A stretch of 64,000 nucleotides of DNA from Lentisphaerae bacterium GWF2_57_35 (GTDB lineage: Bacteria > Verrucomicrobiota > Kiritimatiellia > CAIQIC01 > GWF2-57-35). The notes under the pieces were generated by a model, which saw nothing but the letters and a program-made list of their open reading frames with translations, had not been told where the DNA came from and did not search any database. Below are positions 4,509 to 48,425 of this stretch, piece by piece. The translations under genes and the position numbers were made by a program. The stretch is taken from positions 62,001 to 126,000 of the forward strand of contig MHBK01000022.1 in assembly GCA_001804865.1 (NCBI GenBank), in the 5' to 3' direction. Each line of letters starts with the position of its first letter. Within the stretch, counting starts at the first letter, position 1.

Positions 4509-4648
4509 CGGCGCTCAGCGGAGTGAGCGCCCTACCCACGGCAAAAAATGTCGGGACCCCGATCCGGATCGGGGTCGCCGTCCGCTTTTTGGAGGGTCGC
4601 GCTCCGTCGCGACCGGAAAAAGAAGGTTCCGACAGAGCGGAACCCTCC
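4509..4648. repeat. Dispersed palindromic repeat between trkH and hemCD
   Basis: This sits in the 318-bp gap upstream of hemCD. It starts with GGCGCTCAGCGGAGTGAGCGCCCTACC, a hairpin related to the one near 7650, and a GATCCGGATC palindrome follows. The best-conserved part is 4591-4648: GGAGGGTCGCGCTCCGTCG, then GCGACC, and GGTTCCGACAGAGCGGAACC ending in CTCC. The same unit recurs near 12728, 18654, 24966 (inverted), 37346 and 48045. Outer GGAGGG/CCCTCC arms enclose two inner hairpins. No gene is supported in this gap. Confidence 0.85.
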
Positions 4649-4694
4649 AGAAATCTTTGAGATCGCGCTTACGTCGACGGTTACGTACGGTTCG

Positions 4695-9740: not shown

Positions 9741-9775
9741 ACGTGGAACCGATACAACCTTGCCGCGGCTTTTCG

Positions 9776-9858
9776 ATTTTTCCAATGATTGGAAAATCGG
9801 CGCCAATTTTTTCCAATCATTGGAAAACTGTGCTACAGTTTATCCAACCATTGGAAAA
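9776..9858 (+). promoter_or_regulatory. Three phased CCAAT-N-ATTGG operator-like palindromes upstream of ilvD
   Basis: Three inverted repeats are visible: TTTTCCAATGATTGGAAAA, TTTTCCAATCATTGGAAAA and TATCCAACCATTGGAAAA. Their centres are at 9787, 9818 and 9849, exactly 31 bp apart, which is about three helical turns and puts them on one DNA face. The last ends 10 bp before the ilvD start codon and next to its GGAGGG, so binding would block transcription or translation initiation. A fourth similar site, TTTTCCAATCGTTGGAAAA, is at 56771-56789. The cognate regulator is unknown. Confidence 0.8.
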
Positions 9859-9868
9859 TCGGAGGGTT

Positions 9869-11584
9869 ATGAAAAAAGAGAGTCGGGTTGCTGCTGCTTC
9901 GAAGCCATCGCTTCATCGTCGATATTCTTCCCAAATCACCGAAGGGGTCGAGCGCGCGCCCAGCCGGGCGATGCTGCATGCGGTGGGGTTTTCTAACGCG
10001 GATTTCAAGAAATCTCAGGTGGGCATCGCGTCCACGTGGAGCATGGTAACGCCGTGCAACATGCACATCGACCAGCTCGCCCGCGAAGCGGCGGCCGGCG
10101 TCGACAAAGCCGGGGGCAAGGCGGTCATTTTCAATACGATCACGATTTCCGACGGGATTTCCATGGGGACGGAAGGCATGAAGTATTCGCTCGTCTCGCG
10201 CGAGGTCATTGCCGATTCGATCGAGACGGTTGCGGGCTGCGAACAGTTCGATGGGTTGGTGGCGATCGGCGGCTGCGATAAAAACATGCCGGGTTGCCTG
10301 ATGGCTTTCGCGCGGCTGGATCGTCCGGCGGTCTTTGTCTATGGCGGGACAATCTTGCCGGGCCGCTGCCAAGGCAAGAAGGTGGACATCGTTTCGGTTT
10401 TCGAGGCCGTAGGCGCTCAGGCCAACGGACGGATGTCGCGGCGGGAGGTTTCCGAAGTCGAAGCGTGTGCCATTCCCGGGCCGGGCTCGTGCGGAGGAAT
10501 GTATACGGCCAATACGATGGCCTCGGCGATCGAGGCCATGGGCATGAGCCTGCCGAACAGCTCGGCGCAGGCGGCGATTTCCCGGGCGAAGACTTTGGAT
10601 TGCCGGAGCGCCGGGCAGGCGGTCTTGTCCTTAATCAAACGGGGCATTCGCCCGTCGGATATTCTCTCGAAAAAATCTTTCGAGAACGCCATGACGGTGG
10701 TGATGGCCTTGGGCGGTTCGACGAATGCCGTGCTGCACTTGCTGGCCATGGCGCACTCGGCGGGCGTCAAGCTGGAGTTGGACGACTTCACGCGGATTGG
10801 ACGCCGCGTTCCGGTGCTGGCCGATTTGAAGCCCAGCGGGCAATTTCTCATGGCGGATTTGGTGAAGATTGGCGGCCTTGCGCCGCTGATGAAGATGCTG
10901 CTGGAGGAAGGCTTGCTGGACGGAAGCTGTTTGACGGTGACCGGCAAGACGCTCGCCCGGAATCTGACGAAGGTTCGTCCGTATTCGAAAAGCCAGCGCG
11001 TGATCCGTCCGTTTTCCAATCCTATCAAGAAGGAGGGGCATCTGGTCATTCTGTACGGCAACCTGGCCCCGTCCGGCGCCGTGGCAAAAATATCCGGCAA
11101 AGAAGGGGAGCGTTTCACGGGCGACGCGAAGGTCTTTGATTCCGAAGAGAGCGCGTTGAAGAGCATTCTCGACGGAACCATTCGCAAGGGGAATGTGGTT
11201 GTCATCCGTTACGAAGGCCCGCGCGGGGGCCCCGGCATGAGAGAAATGCTCGCGCCGACGTCGGCCGTGATGGGCAAGGGGCTGGGCCGCGACGTGGCTT
11301 TGATCACCGACGGTCGATTCTCCGGCGGCAGTCATGGCTTTGTCGTGGGGCACATCACGCCCGAGGCGTATTCGGGCGGTTTGCTGGCCATTGTTAAGGA
11401 TGGGGATTCGATCGCCATCGACGCCGTCGCGCGCACGATCACGCTCGAAGTTCCGGAATCGGAGATCGCAAAGCGCATGGCGAAATGGAAACCGCCGACG
11501 CCTCGCTATTGCCGCGGCGTATTGGCGAAGTATGCCCGCCTGGTCCAGCCGGCTTCGCTCGGCGCGGTCACGGATCTGGCTTAG
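9869..11584 (+). CDS. ilvD: Dihydroxy-acid dehydratase
   Basis: A 571-residue iron-sulfur dehydratase acting in valine and isoleucine synthesis, forming 2-keto acids from dihydroxy acids. Cluster and active-site motifs are GIASTWSMVTPCNMH, GGCDKNMPGCLMAF and PGPGSCGGMYTANTM, each with a conserved cysteine. Near the C-terminus are YEGPRGGPGMREML and TDGRFSGGSHGFVVGH. The ATG at 9869 was chosen because GGAGGG precedes it; a longer frame would read through the palindrome array as protein. It is followed by a large palindromic element and is separated from ilvB-ilvN by about 1.7 kb. Confidence 0.96.
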   Translation: MKKESRVAAASKPSLHRRYSSQITEGVERAPSRAMLHAVGFSNADFKKSQVGIASTWSMVTPCNMHIDQLAREAAAGVDKAGGKAVIFNTITISDGISMGTEGMKYSLVSREVIADSIETVAGCEQFDGLVAIGGCDKNMPGCLMAFARLDRPAVFVYGGTILPGRCQGKKVDIVSVFEAVGAQANGRMSRREVSEVEACAIPGPGSCGGMYTANTMASAIEAMGMSLPNSSAQAAISRAKTLDCRSAGQAVLSLIKRGIRPSDILSKKSFENAMTVVMALGGSTNAVLHLLAMAHSAGVKLELDDFTRIGRRVPVLADLKPSGQFLMADLVKIGGLAPLMKMLLEEGLLDGSCLTVTGKTLARNLTKVRPYSKSQRVIRPFSNPIKKEGHLVILYGNLAPSGAVAKISGKEGERFTGDAKVFDSEESALKSILDGTIRKGNVVVIRYEGPRGGPGMREMLAPTSAVMGKGLGRDVALITDGRFSGGSHGFVVGHITPEAYSGGLLAIVKDGDSIAIDAVARTITLEVPESEIAKRMAKWKPPTPRYCRGVLAKYARLVQPASLGAVTDLA

Positions 11585-11639
11585 CTTTGGCGTGGTGTGG
11601 AGAGGGTGGGAAGGGGCGAGAACTCCAGCGCAAGTCCCG

Positions 11640-11846
11640 CTGGTCCTTCGACCCGCTCAGGACGGGCCGCATGGGGCAAAACGGAGGCGCGCCATTTGGA
11701 TTCGTCTGCCGCGTTGTCGCAAGCCGGGCGGACAAGAGTCCCGCCCGGCTTGCGACGCCTTGCAGCCGAACCCAACTGGCGCGCCTCCGTTTTGGGGCCT
11801 TCGGCCCGACCCCATGCGCCCTGTCCTGAGCGGGTCGAAGGACCAG
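11640..11846. repeat. Long multi-stem palindromic element, copy 1
   Basis: Outer arms 11640-11663 and 11823-11846 are a perfect 24-bp inverted repeat. A second perfect 18-bp stem pairs 11677-11694 with 11777-11794. GCATGGGG at 11669-11676 pairs with CCCCATGC at 11810-11817. A central hairpin occupies 11716-11756, and a side hairpin GGGCCTTCGGCCC lies at 11795-11807. The same architecture with compensatory changes is at 47772-47984. It lies 55 bp after the ilvD stop and has no coding content that matches a known protein. Confidence 0.9.
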
Positions 11847-11972
11847 CGACAGCCACCCCATGTCACTAAAGTGAACATGGGGTTCCATTGCGGTATTGTT
11901 TTTATGGAGCCGGAGCGACCTCGCTCCGGTTTTTCGCTTTTGGAGCCGGTCTGCCCTCAGACCGGTTTAGGA
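11847..11972. repeat. Short hairpin repeats following the long palindrome
   Basis: CGACAGCCACCCCATGTCAC, then TAAAGTGAACATGGGGTTCC, forms a small hairpin (CCATGTCACT/AGTGAACATGG). TCCATTGCGGTATTG and a GGAGCGACCTCGCTCC hairpin follow. A second GGAGCCGGTCTGCCCTCAGACCGG hairpin ends near 11972. The same order recurs near 37168, 47985 and 48240. The rest of the gap up to 12069 holds nothing recognisable apart from the AAAGGAAT ribosome binding site of the next gene. Confidence 0.75.
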
Positions 11973-12069: not shown

Positions 12070-12513
12070 ATGCCCAGCACCATCAAGCTTCATCGAGTCC
12101 TACGTGCAAAGCCCGAGAAGGTCTATCGTGCGTTTCTCGACGCAGATGCCCTGGCTAAATGGATCCCGCCGAATGGCTTTACCTGCAAGGTCCATCATAT
12201 GGATGTGAAGGTCGGCGGCGCCTACAAGATGTCCTTCACCAATTTTTCCACAGGCAACAGTCAGTCTTTTGGCGGCACTTACCTTGAATTGCTGCCGCAC
12301 GAGCGCATTCGCAACACGGATAAATTCGATGACCCGAATCTTCCAGGTCAAATGGAGACGATCGTTACGTTGAAAGCAAACTCCGTGGGAACCGAGTTGA
12401 CCATCATTCAAGAGGGCGTACCCGATGCAATTCCGGTGGAAGCTTGTTATCTCGGTTGGCAGGAATCGCTGGTGCTGCTGGGTAAACTCGTCGAAGCAGA
12501 GATTCCAGATTAA
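12070..12513 (+). CDS. SRPBCC/AHSA1-like domain protein
   Basis: A 147-residue cytoplasmic protein of the START/SRPBCC superfamily, AHSA1 (activator of Hsp90 ATPase) branch. Signatures are LHRVLRAKPEKVYRAFLDADALAKWIPPNGF at the N-terminus (only part of which is family-conserved), GGAYKMSF in the central sheet, TYLELLPHERI, and a C-terminal helix GWQESLVLLGKLVE. Members bind hydrophobic ligands in a helix-grip cavity; the ligand here cannot be inferred. It is a single gene with AAAGGAAT upstream, flanked on both sides by palindromic repeats. Confidence 0.88.
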   Translation: MPSTIKLHRVLRAKPEKVYRAFLDADALAKWIPPNGFTCKVHHMDVKVGGAYKMSFTNFSTGNSQSFGGTYLELLPHERIRNTDKFDDPNLPGQMETIVTLKANSVGTELTIIQEGVPDAIPVEACYLGWQESLVLLGKLVEAEIPD

Positions 12514-12624: not shown

Positions 12625-12710
12625 TTATCCGTGGGACGCTTTGCCATCCGTGGGGCCACTCTTTCAGGAGAAGAAGGAGCCCCACGGATGGCAAAGCGTC
12701 CCACGGATAA
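12625..12710. repeat. Perfect 32-bp inverted repeat with 22-nt loop
   Basis: The arm 12625-12656 (TTATCCGTGGGACGCTTTGC then CATCCGTGGGGC) is the exact complement of 12679-12710. The left arm alone recurs at about 48379-48425, preceded there by the same AAGAGAGTC-GGCATTCAA segment that precedes it here (12589-12609). It follows the AHSA1-like gene by about 110 bp and has no U-tract. Confidence 0.9.
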
Positions 12711-12727
12711 AAGAATATTTGTATTTT

Positions 12728-12861
12728 GGAGGGTCGCGCTCCGTCGCGACCGAAAGAAGAAGGTTCCGGCAGAGCGGAACCCTCCAGGAATCATGTACTT
12801 GGATTGCTAGAAGGTGTGCCGAACCCGTTTTGCTATCCAACAAGTTGCAGTGCACATAAAA
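12728..12861. repeat. GGAGGGTCGCGCTCC repeat plus TTGGATTGCT segment
   Basis: 12728-12785 is a copy of the unit described at 4591-4648, with minor changes. At 12796-12861 a further conserved block begins TACTTGGATTGCT and ends GTTGCAGTGCACATAAAA. The block recurs after the partial copy at 48045, and its last 20 bases recur after the copy at 18654. From 12862 to 13140 nothing gene-like is supported. Confidence 0.8.
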
Positions 12862-18512: not shown

Positions 18513-18653
18513 GACGGCCTCTCAAAAAGCTTTTCCTGTTACATTTTGAGTATTATCGGCGACCTGACGGCTGGCAGCAAGTTGTTTAACCCGCGTGCAG
18601 GCAATTCTCCACGGAAACGATAACATGCCGATTTAACGATAGATCCGTATTTT

Positions 18654-18851
18654 GGAGGGTCGCGCTCCGTCGCGACCGGAAGAAGAAGGTTCCGACAGAG
18701 CGGAACCCTCCAGGAATCATGTTGCAGTGCACATAAAAAGACCATGGACAATTCTCGTTATGGCCTCTTTCGATCGGTTATGGACGGCGAGGCCGCCGTC
18801 CCTCCCGGCTAAAATACCTGCTGCCAGCATTGGGAGGGGCCGCGGCCTCGC
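18654..18851. repeat. Two palindromic repeats upstream of the YadA-head-like gene
   Basis: 18654-18711 is a complete copy of the GGAGGGTCGCGCTCC unit, followed by GTTGCAGTGCACATAAAA as in the copy near 12860. 18788-18851 is a second repeat whose arms CGAGGCCGCCGTCCCTCCC and GGGAGGGGCCGCGGCCTCG pair imperfectly; a relative is at 39924-39982. The remainder of the 439-bp gap 18513-18951 shows no gene. GGAGGAGAAAG just before 18952 is the ribosome binding site. Confidence 0.8.
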
Positions 18852-24795: not shown

Positions 24796-24965
24796 TAATA
24801 ACCTTCGTTAGAGAAAAATGTGATGAAACAATACGGAATGCCGCGCAAAGGTCAAACAGGATTTATGCCGAGGAGATCTATTACGCGATCGGCGGGGGAC
24901 AGGCGAGGGGGGGATTGGAGTGTTGGAAGGAGGAAGAATTCGCCAAAAAAGATCGCAACGATTTT

Positions 24966-25097
24966 GGAGGGTTCCGCTCTGTCGGAACCTTTTTCTACCG
25001 GTCGCGACGGAGCGCGCCCCTCCAAAATACAAACTTTCTTGGCCCAGCTCTACATGAAGAAGAATTTACGCATAAAAGACAGGGCTTATGCCGGCGG
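24966..25097. repeat. Inverted copy of the GGAGGGTCGCGCTCC unit plus flanking repeat pieces
   Basis: 24966-25023 is the reverse complement of the unit found near 4591 and 37346, with an irregular middle. ACTTTCTTGGCCCAGCTCTAC follows (complement of a segment near 37289), then GCTTATGCCGGCGGCTACG, resembling the core of the 134-bp element at 39790. The 302-bp gap 24796-25097 between metX and metW is thus built largely of repeat pieces; no gene is supported. Confidence 0.75.
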
Positions 25098-29141: not shown

Positions 29142-29275
29142 GGGTGCATCTTCACTGCCCCCGCGCATACGAATAAGAACCCACGTCCTTACGGACGCGG
29201 CTACGTAGCCGCCGGCGTAAGCCGGTGGTTTCTTTCCAGTGCCAGACGTTGAGGAGGGGCAGTCAAGATGCACCC
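29142..29275. repeat. 134-bp element with terminal inverted repeats, copy A
   Basis: The ends GGGTGCATCTTCACTGCCC and GGGCAGTCAAGATGCACCC are inverted with one mismatch. The interior contains GTCCTTACGGAC, GCGGCTACGTAGCCGC and CCGGCGTAAGCCGG palindromes. It matches, in opposite orientation and at identical length, the copy at 39790-39923. It encodes no protein and lies upstream of clpB. A GATGCCCCC...GGGGTGCATC hairpin precedes it. The remainder of the gap 28975-29366 holds the clpB promoter candidate. Confidence 0.88.
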
Positions 29276-37164: not shown

Positions 37165-37403
37165 GGAAGGGCCAAGCGACAGCCACTCCATGCCAGTAAA
37201 CTGGACATGGGGTTCCATTGCGGTAGTTGTTTTCTTGGAGCCGGGGCGACCTCGCCCCGGTCTTTTATACACAAATTTTCTTCCTGTAGAGCTGGGCCAA
37301 AAAGATCGCCGCAAAGAGTTGCGGCTGCAAGAAGGTTTGTATTTTGGAGGGTCGCGCTCCGTCGCGACCGGAAGAAGAAGGTTCCGACAGAGCGGAACCC
37401 TCC
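37165..37403. repeat. Composite repeat island after the GH31 gene
   Basis: The order is: GGCCAAGCGACAGCCACTCC, a CCATGCCAGTAAACTGGACATGG hairpin, TCCATTGCGGTAGTTG, a GGGGCGACCTCGCCCC hairpin, a GATCGCCGCAAAGAGTTGCGG segment, and a complete GGAGGGTCGCGCTCC unit at 37346-37403. The same series, in part or whole, occurs near 11847, 47985 and 48240. The rest of the gap to 37612 has no gene. Confidence 0.82.
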
Positions 37404-37612
37404 AAAAGCTTAGAGAATGTTGTTTTGTACTTGGTGTTCGACTGGCCTTAAATCGCCGGTTGTTCTCGGGAGGGTCGGGGGCCTCGCCGTCCTGATTTTT
37501 TAACTTGTTGCAACGCGCAACAAAACAGTGGCCGTGCTTGCCTAGGCGCGGTAAGCTCGGTCATCTGCGGGCTGTCGCCCTCGGCTACGAAAGCATGGAA
37601 TAAGGTCAACCT

Positions 37613-39789: not shown

Positions 39790-39923
39790 GGGTGCATCTT
39801 GACGGCCCCTCCTCAACGTCAGGCACTGGAAAGAAGCCACCGGCTTACGCCGGCGGCTACGTAGCCGCGTCCGTAAGGACGTGGATTCTTATTCATATGC
39901 GCGGAGGCCGTGAAGATGCACCC
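39790..39923. repeat. 134-bp element with terminal inverted repeats, copy B
   Basis: The ends GGGTGCATCTTGACGGCC and GGCCGTGAAGATGCACCC are inverted with one mismatch. The core contains CCGGCTTACGCCGG, CGGCTACGTAGCCG and GTCCGTAAGGAC palindromes. It is the same length as copy A at 29142 and lies in the opposite orientation. It directly abuts another repeat at 39924. No protein is encoded. Confidence 0.88.
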
Positions 39924-45904: not shown

Positions 45905-47599
45905 TCATCGGTACAAATTCGTAATCGGCATCCGGCGATCGCGTCCGAAAGCTTTCGGGGTGATCTTGATGCCGGGCGCGCCCTGGCGCCGTTTATATTC
46001 GTTTAAATCCACCAGTCGAACCACCTTGCGAACCGTCTCGGGATCGAAGCCTTCGGCAATGATGTCGGCGGCGCCCTGATCGTGCTCCACATAACGTTCC
46101 AGGATGGGGTCCAGGATCTCGTAAGGCGGCAGGCTGTCGCTGTCCTTCTGGTTGTCGCGCAATTCCGCCGTGGGCGGGCGCTCGATGGTGGAGGGCGGGA
46201 TGACCGCCCCGCCCGGCTGCCGGTTGCGCCAGCGGGCCAGCTCGAAGACCAGCGTCTTGGGTACGTCCTTGATCACGGCAAAGCCGCCGGCCATGTCGCC
46301 GTAGAGGGTGCAGTACCCCGTGGCCAATTCGCTCTTGTTGCCCGTGGTCAGCACCATCCAGCCGAATTTGTTCGAGAGCGCCATGATCAGGTTGCCGCGA
46401 ATCCGGGCCTGTAGATTTTCTTCTGCGCTGTCGGCCGGCATGCCGGCCCAGATGTCGGCCAATTGCTGCCGATAGGCGGCGAACAACTCCTGGATGGGAA
46501 GGGTGTGAAATTCGATGTTCAGGTTGTTGGCCAGTTTCATCGCGTCGCCGCGGGTGGCTTGCGAGGAAAACTGCGAGGGCATGGTCACGCCTACGACCCG
46601 CTGGGCGCCCAGGGCGTCGACGGCGATGGCGGCCACGAGGGCGGAATCGATGCCGCCGCTGAGAGCTGCCACGGTGCGTCCGAATCCGTTTTTACCCACG
46701 TAGTCGCGCAAGCCGGTCTTGAGGGCCTCGTACACTTCGGCCAGATCCTCCAGCGGCTCTTCGATGCGGACAGGAAAAGCGGTCGAGGCAGAAGCCTTGG
46801 GTTCGATCGCGCAAAGATCGACCATCGGCAGCTCGGTCGGCGAGGGGGTCGCCGCTAGATGCATCGGCAGGCTGACGTGCAGGATGTCGTCGGCGAATTG
46901 CTTGGCGCGGACGATCACTTGACCCGCGGCGTTGAGGGCCATACTGGCTCCGTCGAAAACCAGTTCGTCCTGTCCGCCGGTCAGGTTGCAGTAGAGCAGG
47001 GGCGCGCCCACGGCCAGGGCGGTCTGCCGCATGACGTTTTCGCGAACGCCCAGCTTGCCCCGATGATAGGGCGAGGCCGAGATGTTGATCAATACGTTGA
47101 GCCCCGCGGGCTTCAGAAGCGCACAGGCCGCTTCGTCGGGAAACCAGGAATCCTCGCATACGTGCAGGCCAATGCGTACGGCGCCATATTGGAGAACCAT
47201 CGCCCGGTGACCGGCCAGGAAGACCCTCTTTTCGTCGAAGACGCCGTAATTCGGCAGCAGCATCTTGTGGTAGGTCGCCGCGATTTGGCCGCCATGAAAA
47301 ACAACGGCTGCGTTATAGGTTTTGGCGTGGGCGCCGGACGGACTGCCCAGAATTACGAGCCGGTCGGCCGGCAGCTCTTTGGCCATCCGATGGAGTTGCT
47401 TCCGGCAGTCCTCCGTAAAATGCTGCTTGAGGATCAAATCCTCCGGAGGATAGCCCGACAAGACCAGCTCCGGAAAGACGAGAATATCTGCCCCGTTTTG
47501 AGCCGCCTTATGGGCCAATTGCACCATCTTATCGGCATTGGCCGCCAACGCGCCCACCGTGGTGTTGGTTTGTATCAAAGCGATGGAAAGTCCATTCAT
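45905..47599 (-). CDS. nadE: Glutamine-dependent NAD(+) synthetase
   Basis: A 564-residue two-domain enzyme that amidates deamido-NAD to NAD using glutamine. The N-terminal nitrilase-type amidohydrolase has the Glu-Lys-Cys triad in FPELVLSGYPP, TYHKMLLPNYGVFDE and GLHVCEDSWF. The C-terminal synthetase has the ATP motif LSGGIDSALVAAIA and the LTTGNKSELATGY loop. Length fits the glutamine-dependent group. The ATG at 47597-47599 is where family similarity begins; the in-frame longer form adds seven residues. Placed amid nitrogen genes, but cotranscription is not evident. Confidence 0.96.
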   Translation of the reverse strand: MNGLSIALIQTNTTVGALAANADKMVQLAHKAAQNGADILVFPELVLSGYPPEDLILKQHFTEDCRKQLHRMAKELPADRLVILGSPSGAHAKTYNAAVVFHGGQIAATYHKMLLPNYGVFDEKRVFLAGHRAMVLQYGAVRIGLHVCEDSWFPDEAACALLKPAGLNVLINISASPYHRGKLGVRENVMRQTALAVGAPLLYCNLTGGQDELVFDGASMALNAAGQVIVRAKQFADDILHVSLPMHLAATPSPTELPMVDLCAIEPKASASTAFPVRIEEPLEDLAEVYEALKTGLRDYVGKNGFGRTVAALSGGIDSALVAAIAVDALGAQRVVGVTMPSQFSSQATRGDAMKLANNLNIEFHTLPIQELFAAYRQQLADIWAGMPADSAEENLQARIRGNLIMALSNKFGWMVLTTGNKSELATGYCTLYGDMAGGFAVIKDVPKTLVFELARWRNRQPGGAVIPPSTIERPPTAELRDNQKDSDSLPPYEILDPILERYVEHDQGAADIIAEGFDPETVRKVVRLVDLNEYKRRQGAPGIKITPKAFGRDRRMPITNLYR

Positions 47600-47771
47600 G
47601 CGACAAAAATGTAGTGCCAAGGGCGCGATAATACAATGTTTAAGTGGAAGGATTCGTTAATGGGTGCGTCCGTTTTCGGTCCCTCTTACTTCTAATCATC
47701 ATCTCTCTTTGTTCTTTCGCGGGGGAACTGGGTGGGTTTTAGGGGGGGGTAGCGCTCCAACGCAAGTCCCG

Positions 47772-47984
47772 CTTGGCCCTTCGACAAGCTCAGGCCAGGC
47801 GCATGGGGCAAAACGGGGGCGCGCCAGCTTGGTCCATTGGCTGCGTTGGCGCAAGCCGGGCGGACAAAAGTCCTGCCCGGCTTGCGCCGCCTTGCCACTG
47901 AACCAAGCTGACGCGCCCCCGTTTTGGGGCCGATCGGAATCGGCCCGACCCCATGCGCCTGGCCTGGCTTGTCGAAGGGCCAAG
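47772..47984. repeat. Long multi-stem palindromic element, copy 2
   Basis: Outer arms CTTGGCCCTTCGACAAGC... (47772-47808) and ...GCTTGTCGAAGGGCCAAG (47949-47984) pair over about 36 bp with one bulge. An inner stem pairs 47809-47832 with 47902-47927. A central CGCAAGCCGGGC/GCCCGGCTTGCG hairpin and a side GGGCCGATCGGAATCGGCCC hairpin complete it. It is the same fold as 11640-11846, with paired substitutions. Confidence 0.9.
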
Positions 47985-48425
47985 CGACAGCCACCCCATG
48001 CCAGTAAACTGGACATGGGGATCCATTGCGGTAGTTGTTTTTTTGGAGGGTCGCGCTCCGTCGCGACCGGAAGAAGAAGGTTCCGATACTTGGATTGCTT
48101 GATGGTGTGCCGAAACTGTTTTGCTATCCAACAAGTTGCAGTGCGCATAAAAGACCGCAGCCATTCTTGGCTGCGATCCTGCTGCTGAGAATTCGATCTT
48201 GGAGCCATAATTACAATTGCTGCCTCTTGGCCTTTCGACAGGCCAGGCCATGCCAGTAAACTGGACATGGGGTCCCATTGCGGTAGTTGTTTTCTTTGGA
48301 GCCGGGGCGACTCGCCTGTCTTTTATCATAAATTCTCCAAGAGAGTCTGGCATTCAAAAGAGTCATAGTTTCTTATAATTTCTTATCCGTGGGACGCTTT
48401 GCCATCTGTGGGGCCACTCTTCCCA
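47985..48425. repeat. Composite repeat island between nadE and glnA
   Basis: In order: CGACAGCCACCCCATGCCAG with its ACTGGACATGG partner; a truncated GGAGGGTCGCGCTCC unit (48045-48087); the TACTTGGATTGCT...GTTGCAGTGCGCATAAAA block (48086-48158); a second partial outer arm and CCAGTAAACTGG hairpin (48232-48272); a GGAGCCGGGGCGACTCGC remnant; AAGAGAGTCTGGCATTCAA; and the left arm of the 32-bp inverted repeat (48379-48425). With copy 2 of the long palindrome, repeats fill most of the roughly 960-bp gap 47600-48558. No gene is supported. Confidence 0.8.

Follow-up and report, generated by a model that had tools for sequence, protein, structure and literature searches.

A repeat unit shared by two loci of the window

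The window analysed here, a stretch of 64,000 nucleotides taken at its full length, carries two copies of a long palindromic repeat. Copy 1 occupies positions 11623–11909 (+) between ilvD (9743–11584, +) and a gene with an AHSA1 domain (12070–12513, +). Copy 2 is found at 47755–48048 (+), with its 5' side facing the start of a nadE-type gene (45905–47620, −); in both cases the neighbouring genes were assigned by Pfam. The two copies can be aligned over about 290 nt, from a CTCCA at the left end (11623 and 47755) to a GGAG at the right end (11909 and 48048), and this alignment defines the whole unit. The sequence-only reading had described an element of about 210 nt. That element is real, but according to the alignment, which takes in a second hairpin, the unit is larger.

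An outer stem, a long core hairpin whose 3' arm bears a side hairpin, and a small second hairpin make up the unit. The core hairpin, which is the span of the covariance model, extends over 11667–11819 (+) in copy 1 and 47799–47958 (+) in copy 2, with R1 matches of 158.4 and 176.5 bits, respectively; its length ranged from 136 to 194 nt in 24 copies. Within the core of copy 1, a conserved internal loop reads NGYGTT on the 5' side (11710–11715, +) and GCCTT on the 3' side (11757–11761, +). The outer stem of this copy contains an optional module, CCTTCGACCCGCTCAGG, whose left arm (11645–11661, +) has its partner in the right arm at 11825–11841 (−). The small second hairpin, CCCCATG...CATGGGG, is located at 11856–11882 (+) in copy 1 and at 47994–48020 (+) in copy 2. 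A GGAG-tagged REP-like hairpin follows the unit in copy 1 and in many others; in copy 1 it abuts the right end (11906–11929, +), the GGAG being common to both. Among 14 copies from this genome, nine have a GGAG within 120 nt to the right of the element.

The outer and inner stems named in the earlier reading are present in both copies, and the pairs that it quoted, ACCCGCTCAGGAC/GTCCTGAGCGGGT, GGAGGCG/CGCCTCC and GGGGGCG/CGCCCCC, were verified in the two sequences. In copy 1 the outer arms (11638–11676 and 11810–11848) are 95% complementary and the inner arms (11660–11709 and 11762–11811) 82%. The predicted fold of 11600–11950 had an energy of −246.8 kcal/mol compared with a mean of −149.8 for shuffled sequences (z = −16.6), and none of 100 shuffles folded as low.

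The right end of the unit also occurs by itself. Solitary modules made up of the second hairpin and the GGAG end, without a core, were located at 37166–37240 (+; BLAST hit C22:99166–99241) and, about 180 nt past copy 2, at 48226–48300 (+; BLAST hit C22:110236–110302), both belonging to repeat family D2. Other repeats are present in the window as well. A BIME-like repeat, TTTTGGAGGGTCGCGCTCCGTCGCGACC...GGTTCCGACAGAGCGGAACCCTCCA, consists of two hairpins, bounded on the outside by GGAG and CTCC, and occurs in both orientations, at 4587–4652, 12724–12786, 18650–18712, 24962–25040 and 37342–37404. A near-perfect hairpin of 41 nt (TTATCCGTGGGACGCTTTGCCATCCGTGGGGCC...) lies at 12625–12710 with a related single arm at 48375–48421, and similar sequence also follows two copies of the present repeat (L006 and L008). 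Two inverted repeats of 134 nt (29142–29275 and 39790–39923), 95% complementary and 10.5 kb apart, each contain a palindrome of their own.

Distribution of the repeat and conservation of its fold

The two copies first seen are members of a repeat with about 20 copies in the genome; the initial observation, which is confirmed, had understated it. A first covariance model was built from 22 copies. Collecting genome copies by covariance model, as the sequence-only reading had proposed, recovered 18 full cores of consistent strand in the own genome plus one cut by a contig end, and showed that the family reaches the class level. BLAST in the same genome returned 45 raw hits, many of which represent the palindrome matching itself. 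The copies sit at dispersed, unrelated loci, and some are truncated or partly decayed.

A DNA search of 38 genomes detected the repeat in the own genome and two others. Of 28 genomes in the order, 8 gave covariance-model matches, three with one weak match each. In the class, matches came from 42 of 288 genomes, representing 30 of 113 genera; the copy counts at class level are to be read as "at least", since ten candidates were scored per genome. A second model matched 27 of 387 phylum genomes, each being the own genome or one of the same class, in a set for which the number of genomes from other classes is not shown. Viral spread was set aside, the exact core pattern giving no match in viral contigs.

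Rfam searches of the stretches scanned around the copies, using the gathering score as well as lax E-values, assigned no family to the repeat. Known RNA families were rejected, as over the copies only miRNA-type hairpin families and two sRNA families were returned, all far under their gathering scores. A near-threshold match to group II intron D1-D4-3 (30.9 bits; gathering score 32) lies at L129:296–462, about 1 kb from a copy. In the titles and abstract openings of open-licence literature on Kiritimatiellae, Kiritimatiellota or Kiritimatiellaeota we found no description of the repeat.

The idea that the model acts as a generic hairpin detector was discarded: of 34 matches inspected at class and order level, 20 carry GYGTT followed by GCCTT. 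The other 14 are without this loop and include five weak matches from G008, G016, G018 and G019. The last of these genomes contains 11 weak matches (e.g. L062 and L074) showing strong hairpins and the tip bulge with a different internal loop; these are possibly a divergent branch, their membership being uncertain with scores near the cut-off.

Covariation was analysed in 49 distinct copies aligned to the model. In this alignment, which was fitted to the structure and thereby favours covariation, and which contained no reverse-strand rows, 52 of the 56 pairs showed changes on both sides. Two-sided changes were counted in 689 cells compared with 198 after shuffling, and 91.7% of cells were paired, compared with 65.3% after shuffling and 45.7% at most when partners were slid. 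The covariation score was 0.649 as against 0.180 (shuffled) and 0.116 at most (partners slid); none of 500 shuffles reached the observed value. In a plain MAFFT alignment of 22 copies, 32 of the 56 pairs already had two-sided changes. Both the selection on the fold that had been proposed from two copies and the significance of the covariation, suggested at the time as a check, are thus supported. From alignment A5, 15 of 120 rows were left out, these being reverse-strand matches of the same palindrome. The 100-source search was carried out without eleven copies (L012, L014, L016, L020, L078, L119, L120, L122, L159, L160 and L186) and without the weak matches from G008, G016, G018 and G019.

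The loops and the bulge are much less variable than the stems. Of 50 non-redundant copies, 36 have both sides of the GYGTT/GCCTT loop intact, 40 retain an AT/CT loop with a T.C mismatch, and all 50 show a one-base bulge near the tip; a further T.C mismatch is kept in 28 of 49 copies only. In two copies (L022 and L024) a second palindrome, TCCGGCTTCGTCCCGTAGCGGGACTACGCCGGA, is nested in one core arm, the right one.

The outer module shows a different kind of regularity. Of 18 own copies, 12 have it in both arms, five lack it and a single one (L014) has it in one arm only; where both modules exist the outer-stem variants match between the arms. This pattern suggests that a module is gained or lost in one arm and that the change then passes to the other. 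Arm-to-arm transfer hence seems to occur. Hairpin-templated repair, which the sequence-only reading had offered as an alternative to selection, is to this extent retained. Its pure form is argued against by the two largely kept internal loops and the constant tip bulge, which arm-to-arm repair alone does not explain.

Orientation of the copies and nature of the folded strand

The strand of each copy was compared with GC skew over stretches of up to 20 kb. It agreed with positive skew for 71 of 90 copies, for 57 of 65 where |skew| was ≥0.02, and for 57 of 72 when third-position skew corrected for gene direction was used. Counted per locus, agreement versus disagreement was 62 to 13 (2 ties) overall and 51 to 6 (1 tie) at |skew| ≥0.02, and at |skew| ≥0.05 all 40 loci agreed (40 to 0). 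The eight exceptions among the 65 copies came from G079 (2 of 2), G202 (2 of 5) and, with one each, from G052, G078, G047 and G028; genomes with weak skew gave mixed signs. From the first set, 20 of 68 matches were excluded from this test (18 reverse-strand self-matches and 2 duplicates in the overlapping L271 and L276), and all 42 matches of the second set were used.

As a control, 443 of 807 genes (55%) lay on the positive-skew strand at loci with |skew| ≥0.02, as judged from simple codon-usage calls and not from annotation. At the same threshold, the bias of the copies was alike at the stop (32 of 36) and at the start (24 of 28) of the adjoining gene. Because the agreement with skew holds regardless of the direction of the adjoining gene, the copies are apparently set by the direction of replication and not by transcription, provided that skew, from which replication direction was deduced in these draft genomes, marks it correctly. 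The gene rpoB usually lies on the leading strand. All of the 9 genomes tested have it on the positive-skew strand, G038 by a margin of only 0.003; third-position skew near rpoB, split by gene direction, was mixed in G038 and G202.

In the own genome, the 5' side of the copies faces a stop codon in 17 of 19 cases, as a transcribed 3' element would, and a cis-acting 3' UTR element was considered on this ground. Compared across genomes, the 5' side is turned mostly to the stop in G000 and G135, but to the start in G052 (8 of 10) and G078 (5 of 7). This reading was therefore dropped.

RNA and DNA were told apart by means of mismatches. Our reasoning was that folded RNA tolerates G.U but not A.C, whereas DNA arms that are free from RNA selection should contain both alike. 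Counts were made over pairs that are mostly Watson-Crick, with one column pair excluded that is U.G in 45 of 50 copies. On the strand reported here, the G.U:A.C ratio in 50 non-redundant copies was 39:95, and 24:55 and 19:28 at stricter pair-quality cut-offs; a separate MAFFT/RNAalifold run gave 38:67, 27:39 and 15:17. As a control, RNase P of 24 class genomes, counted on its RNAalifold structure, gave 151:29, 43:8 and 15:2. The 14 own copies by themselves have the opposite lean (G.U 6, A.C 3), these copies being too alike to provide much power. The arms of the element consist almost only of Watson-Crick pairs. With 39:95 set against 151:29 in RNase P, the reported strand does not have the appearance of being selected as RNA, and judged by sequence such an RNA is disfavoured. 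The structured RNA among the candidates of the sequence-only reading is thereby weakened for the given strand, by the mismatch test with its RNase P control and by the orientation to skew.

On the opposite strand the ratio of wobble to A.C becomes 95:39, decreasing to 28:19 in the best-paired columns; in an alignment of its own with an RNAalifold structure it was 140:44, 49:26 and 19:14. Of 50 copies, 41 have the lower folding energy on this strand when RNA parameters are used and 47 when DNA parameters are used, and mononucleotide shuffles account for about 2 of the 8 kcal/mol by which the strands differ. For RNase P, the sense strand folds lower in 24 of 24 genomes, the mean difference being 21 kcal/mol. 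In folded DNA, G.T is a well-tolerated mismatch. The mild wobble excess and the better fold of the opposite strand fit folded DNA; an RNA made from this strand would show the same excess.

The first alternative is a structured RNA transcribed from the opposite strand, either a multi-copy small RNA or part of a transcript, in which covariation serves RNA folding. We regard it as unlikely, though worth serious attention. In its favour are the better fold in 41 of 50 copies, the surplus of wobble pairs, seen again in the separately structured alignment, and internal loops that are purine-rich when read on this strand. The 17 of 19 own copies that face a stop with their 5' side are a count we hold against a mobile element. 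However, the wobble excess amounts to about 2.4:1 where RNase P has 5:1, and to about 1.5:1 in the best-paired columns. The relation to neighbouring genes is not fixed across genomes, as the counts of stops and starts given above show, orientation tracking GC skew instead; Rfam names no family in the stretches scanned, and no common promoter or terminator was seen by eye.

Probable mobility, remaining alternatives and relation to known systems

Presence and absence of the element were compared at a single orthologous locus, the spacer between two genes that we take to be surA and pdxA from their recognisable sequence. Of five genomes of one genus, G078 alone contains the element at this locus, in a spacer of 288 nt; the four spacers without it (G047, G069, G096 and G105) measure, in order of length, 44, 63, 110 and 151 nt. 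A model search of all 15 pdxA loci fetched likewise found the core in the G078 locus alone. Neither a target duplication nor an exact insertion junction was found, the spacers of the relatives being too divergent. The pdxA genes of L362 (G069), L363 (G096) and L361 (G105) have in-frame insertions after about residue 80–90 with REP-like hairpins; by eye, those of G096 and G105 resemble window family D3 (9667, 22965, 40272 and 48459). Elsewhere in the class, G052 contains inverted pairs, of which two have spacers that look similar by eye, and tandem runs of two and three copies occur in G079. Of the three candidates put forward earlier, a mobile hairpin fits best.

Of the 288 class genomes, 246 have Y1_Tnp genes. 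Two carriers of the element, G074 and G105, have none, and G202 does not appear in the matching rows. In the own genome, none of seven Y1_Tnp loci had a credible copy within 1.5 kb flanks (one chance-level match, E 0.92). With no credible copy beside these loci and some carriers lacking Y1_Tnp, RAYT as the proven enzyme is unsupported; an HUH/Y1 transposase of RAYT-like type is our leading guess for a candidate.

A fold that is kept while its letters change, combined with a nearly constant orientation to GC skew, makes it likely that the repeat is a mobile single-stranded DNA element and not an RNA gene. Our preferred explanation, to which we give somewhat better than even chances, is that of a non-autonomous mobile DNA hairpin which acts as a folded single strand, is inserted or retained in connection with replication forks and probably obtains its transposase in trans. 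The folded single strand of such a miniature element would be read by the enzyme via the conserved loops and the bulge, the loops presumably being the recognition site, and copies would move by means of a transposase probably supplied from elsewhere. Insertion at forks into the lagging-strand template, or retention away from that side, might fix their orientation. If the reported strand is the active one, its sequence would be that of the lagging-strand template, as after an IS608-like insertion. If it is the opposite strand, the better fold would lie on the leading-strand template, like the attC bottom strands in most sedentary integrons.

The near-absolute polarity where skew is strong might also be that of a chromosome-organising or replication-related DNA site, folded or cruciform and bound by a host protein, with its orientation selected as in polar replication motifs. 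Conserved loops would suit recognition by a protein, but we consider such a site improbable in view of the patchy distribution (42 of 288 class genomes), the number of about 20 own copies, the presence at surA-pdxA in one of five genomes of a genus, and the truncated or partly decayed copies. A neutral palindrome, its arms equalised by template switching or mismatch repair within the hairpin and its fold free from selection, agrees with the outer module of the own copies (both arms 12, neither 5, one arm in L014, variants matching), yet is very improbable and largely contradicted by loop conservation, since repair would tend to erase an asymmetric loop kept in 36 of 50 copies and a tip bulge kept in 50 of 50 amid replaced stems, and it leaves the spread over 30 genera and the orientation unexplained.

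A wider proposal can be made. Structured single-stranded DNA may form a family throughout the class, its dispersed elements evolving in the manner of a noncoding RNA, with conserved loops and freely covarying stems, but working as folded DNA and being placed in the chromosome in one orientation to replication by a hairpin-reading enzyme; we put this forward tentatively, rating its chances at clearly less than even. Covariation is usually read as proving that an RNA is functional. The present family shows textbook covariation but does not pass, on the reported strand, a wobble test that RNase P of the same class passes, and where skew is strong its orientation agrees with GC skew almost without exception. 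It may thus serve as a test case for distinguishing between folded DNA and folded RNA from sequence alone, and it points to a putative hairpin-reading enzyme in a little-studied class.

Several known systems invite comparison. ERIC-like repeats are long intergenic imperfect palindromes, group IIC introns are found 3' of genes, and HEARO/omega are IS-linked RNAs; no such Rfam match was obtained over the scanned copies, and no ORF was seen within copies. The attC sites of integrons are characterised by R''/R' boxes with the consensus RYYYAAC and GTTRRRY. When 60 nt of left and 120 nt of right flank were scanned on one strand, GTTRRRY was found in the left and right flanks of 0 and 1 of 14 own copies and of 2 and 4 of 91 others, and RYYYAAC in 0 and 0 of 14 and in 3 and 4 of 91. 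Like attC, the element maintains structure over sequence, and its better-folding strand would lie on the leading-strand template; it differs in its many conserved bases and its dispersed loci. According to PMC5371416, attC sites share three conserved bases, and the recombining strand is on the leading-strand template in 25 of 30 sedentary chromosomal integrons. IS200/IS605 elements such as IS608 and ISDra2 have hairpin ends that are processed as single-stranded DNA and insert into the lagging-strand template at forks (PMC6006769), whereas the present unit of about 290 nt with its multi-loop core has no room for a transposase gene in the aligned copies.

REPs, as characterised in PMC3733652 and PMC3116915, are intergenic, palindromic and multi-copy sequences, often 3' of genes, single or in inverted pairs. 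They measure 20–40 bp and mostly have a GTAG or CGTC tag. The likeness of our repeat to REP/BIME/REPIN sequences, which are mobilised by RAYT (TnpA-REP, Y1), lies in the inverted pairs of G052 and the right-side GGAG of 9 of 14 own copies. The element differs in being about 150–290 nt long and multi-looped, with a fold kept class-wide by covariation. A core of 136–194 nt in a unit of about 290 nt is far from a simple palindrome of 20–40 bp. Nor is there a constant GTAG or CGTC tag: the 14 own copies have GCGGTAG (8), GCGGTAT (5) or neither (1), and of 91 other copies 20 have GTAG and 33 CGTC within 120 nt to the right. A cognate RAYT gene flanked by the repeat was likewise not seen at any of the seven own Y1_Tnp loci. 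On our best reading, the repeat is REP- or attC-like in its behaviour, belongs to neither group and is classed here as a variant of miniature mobile hairpin DNA.
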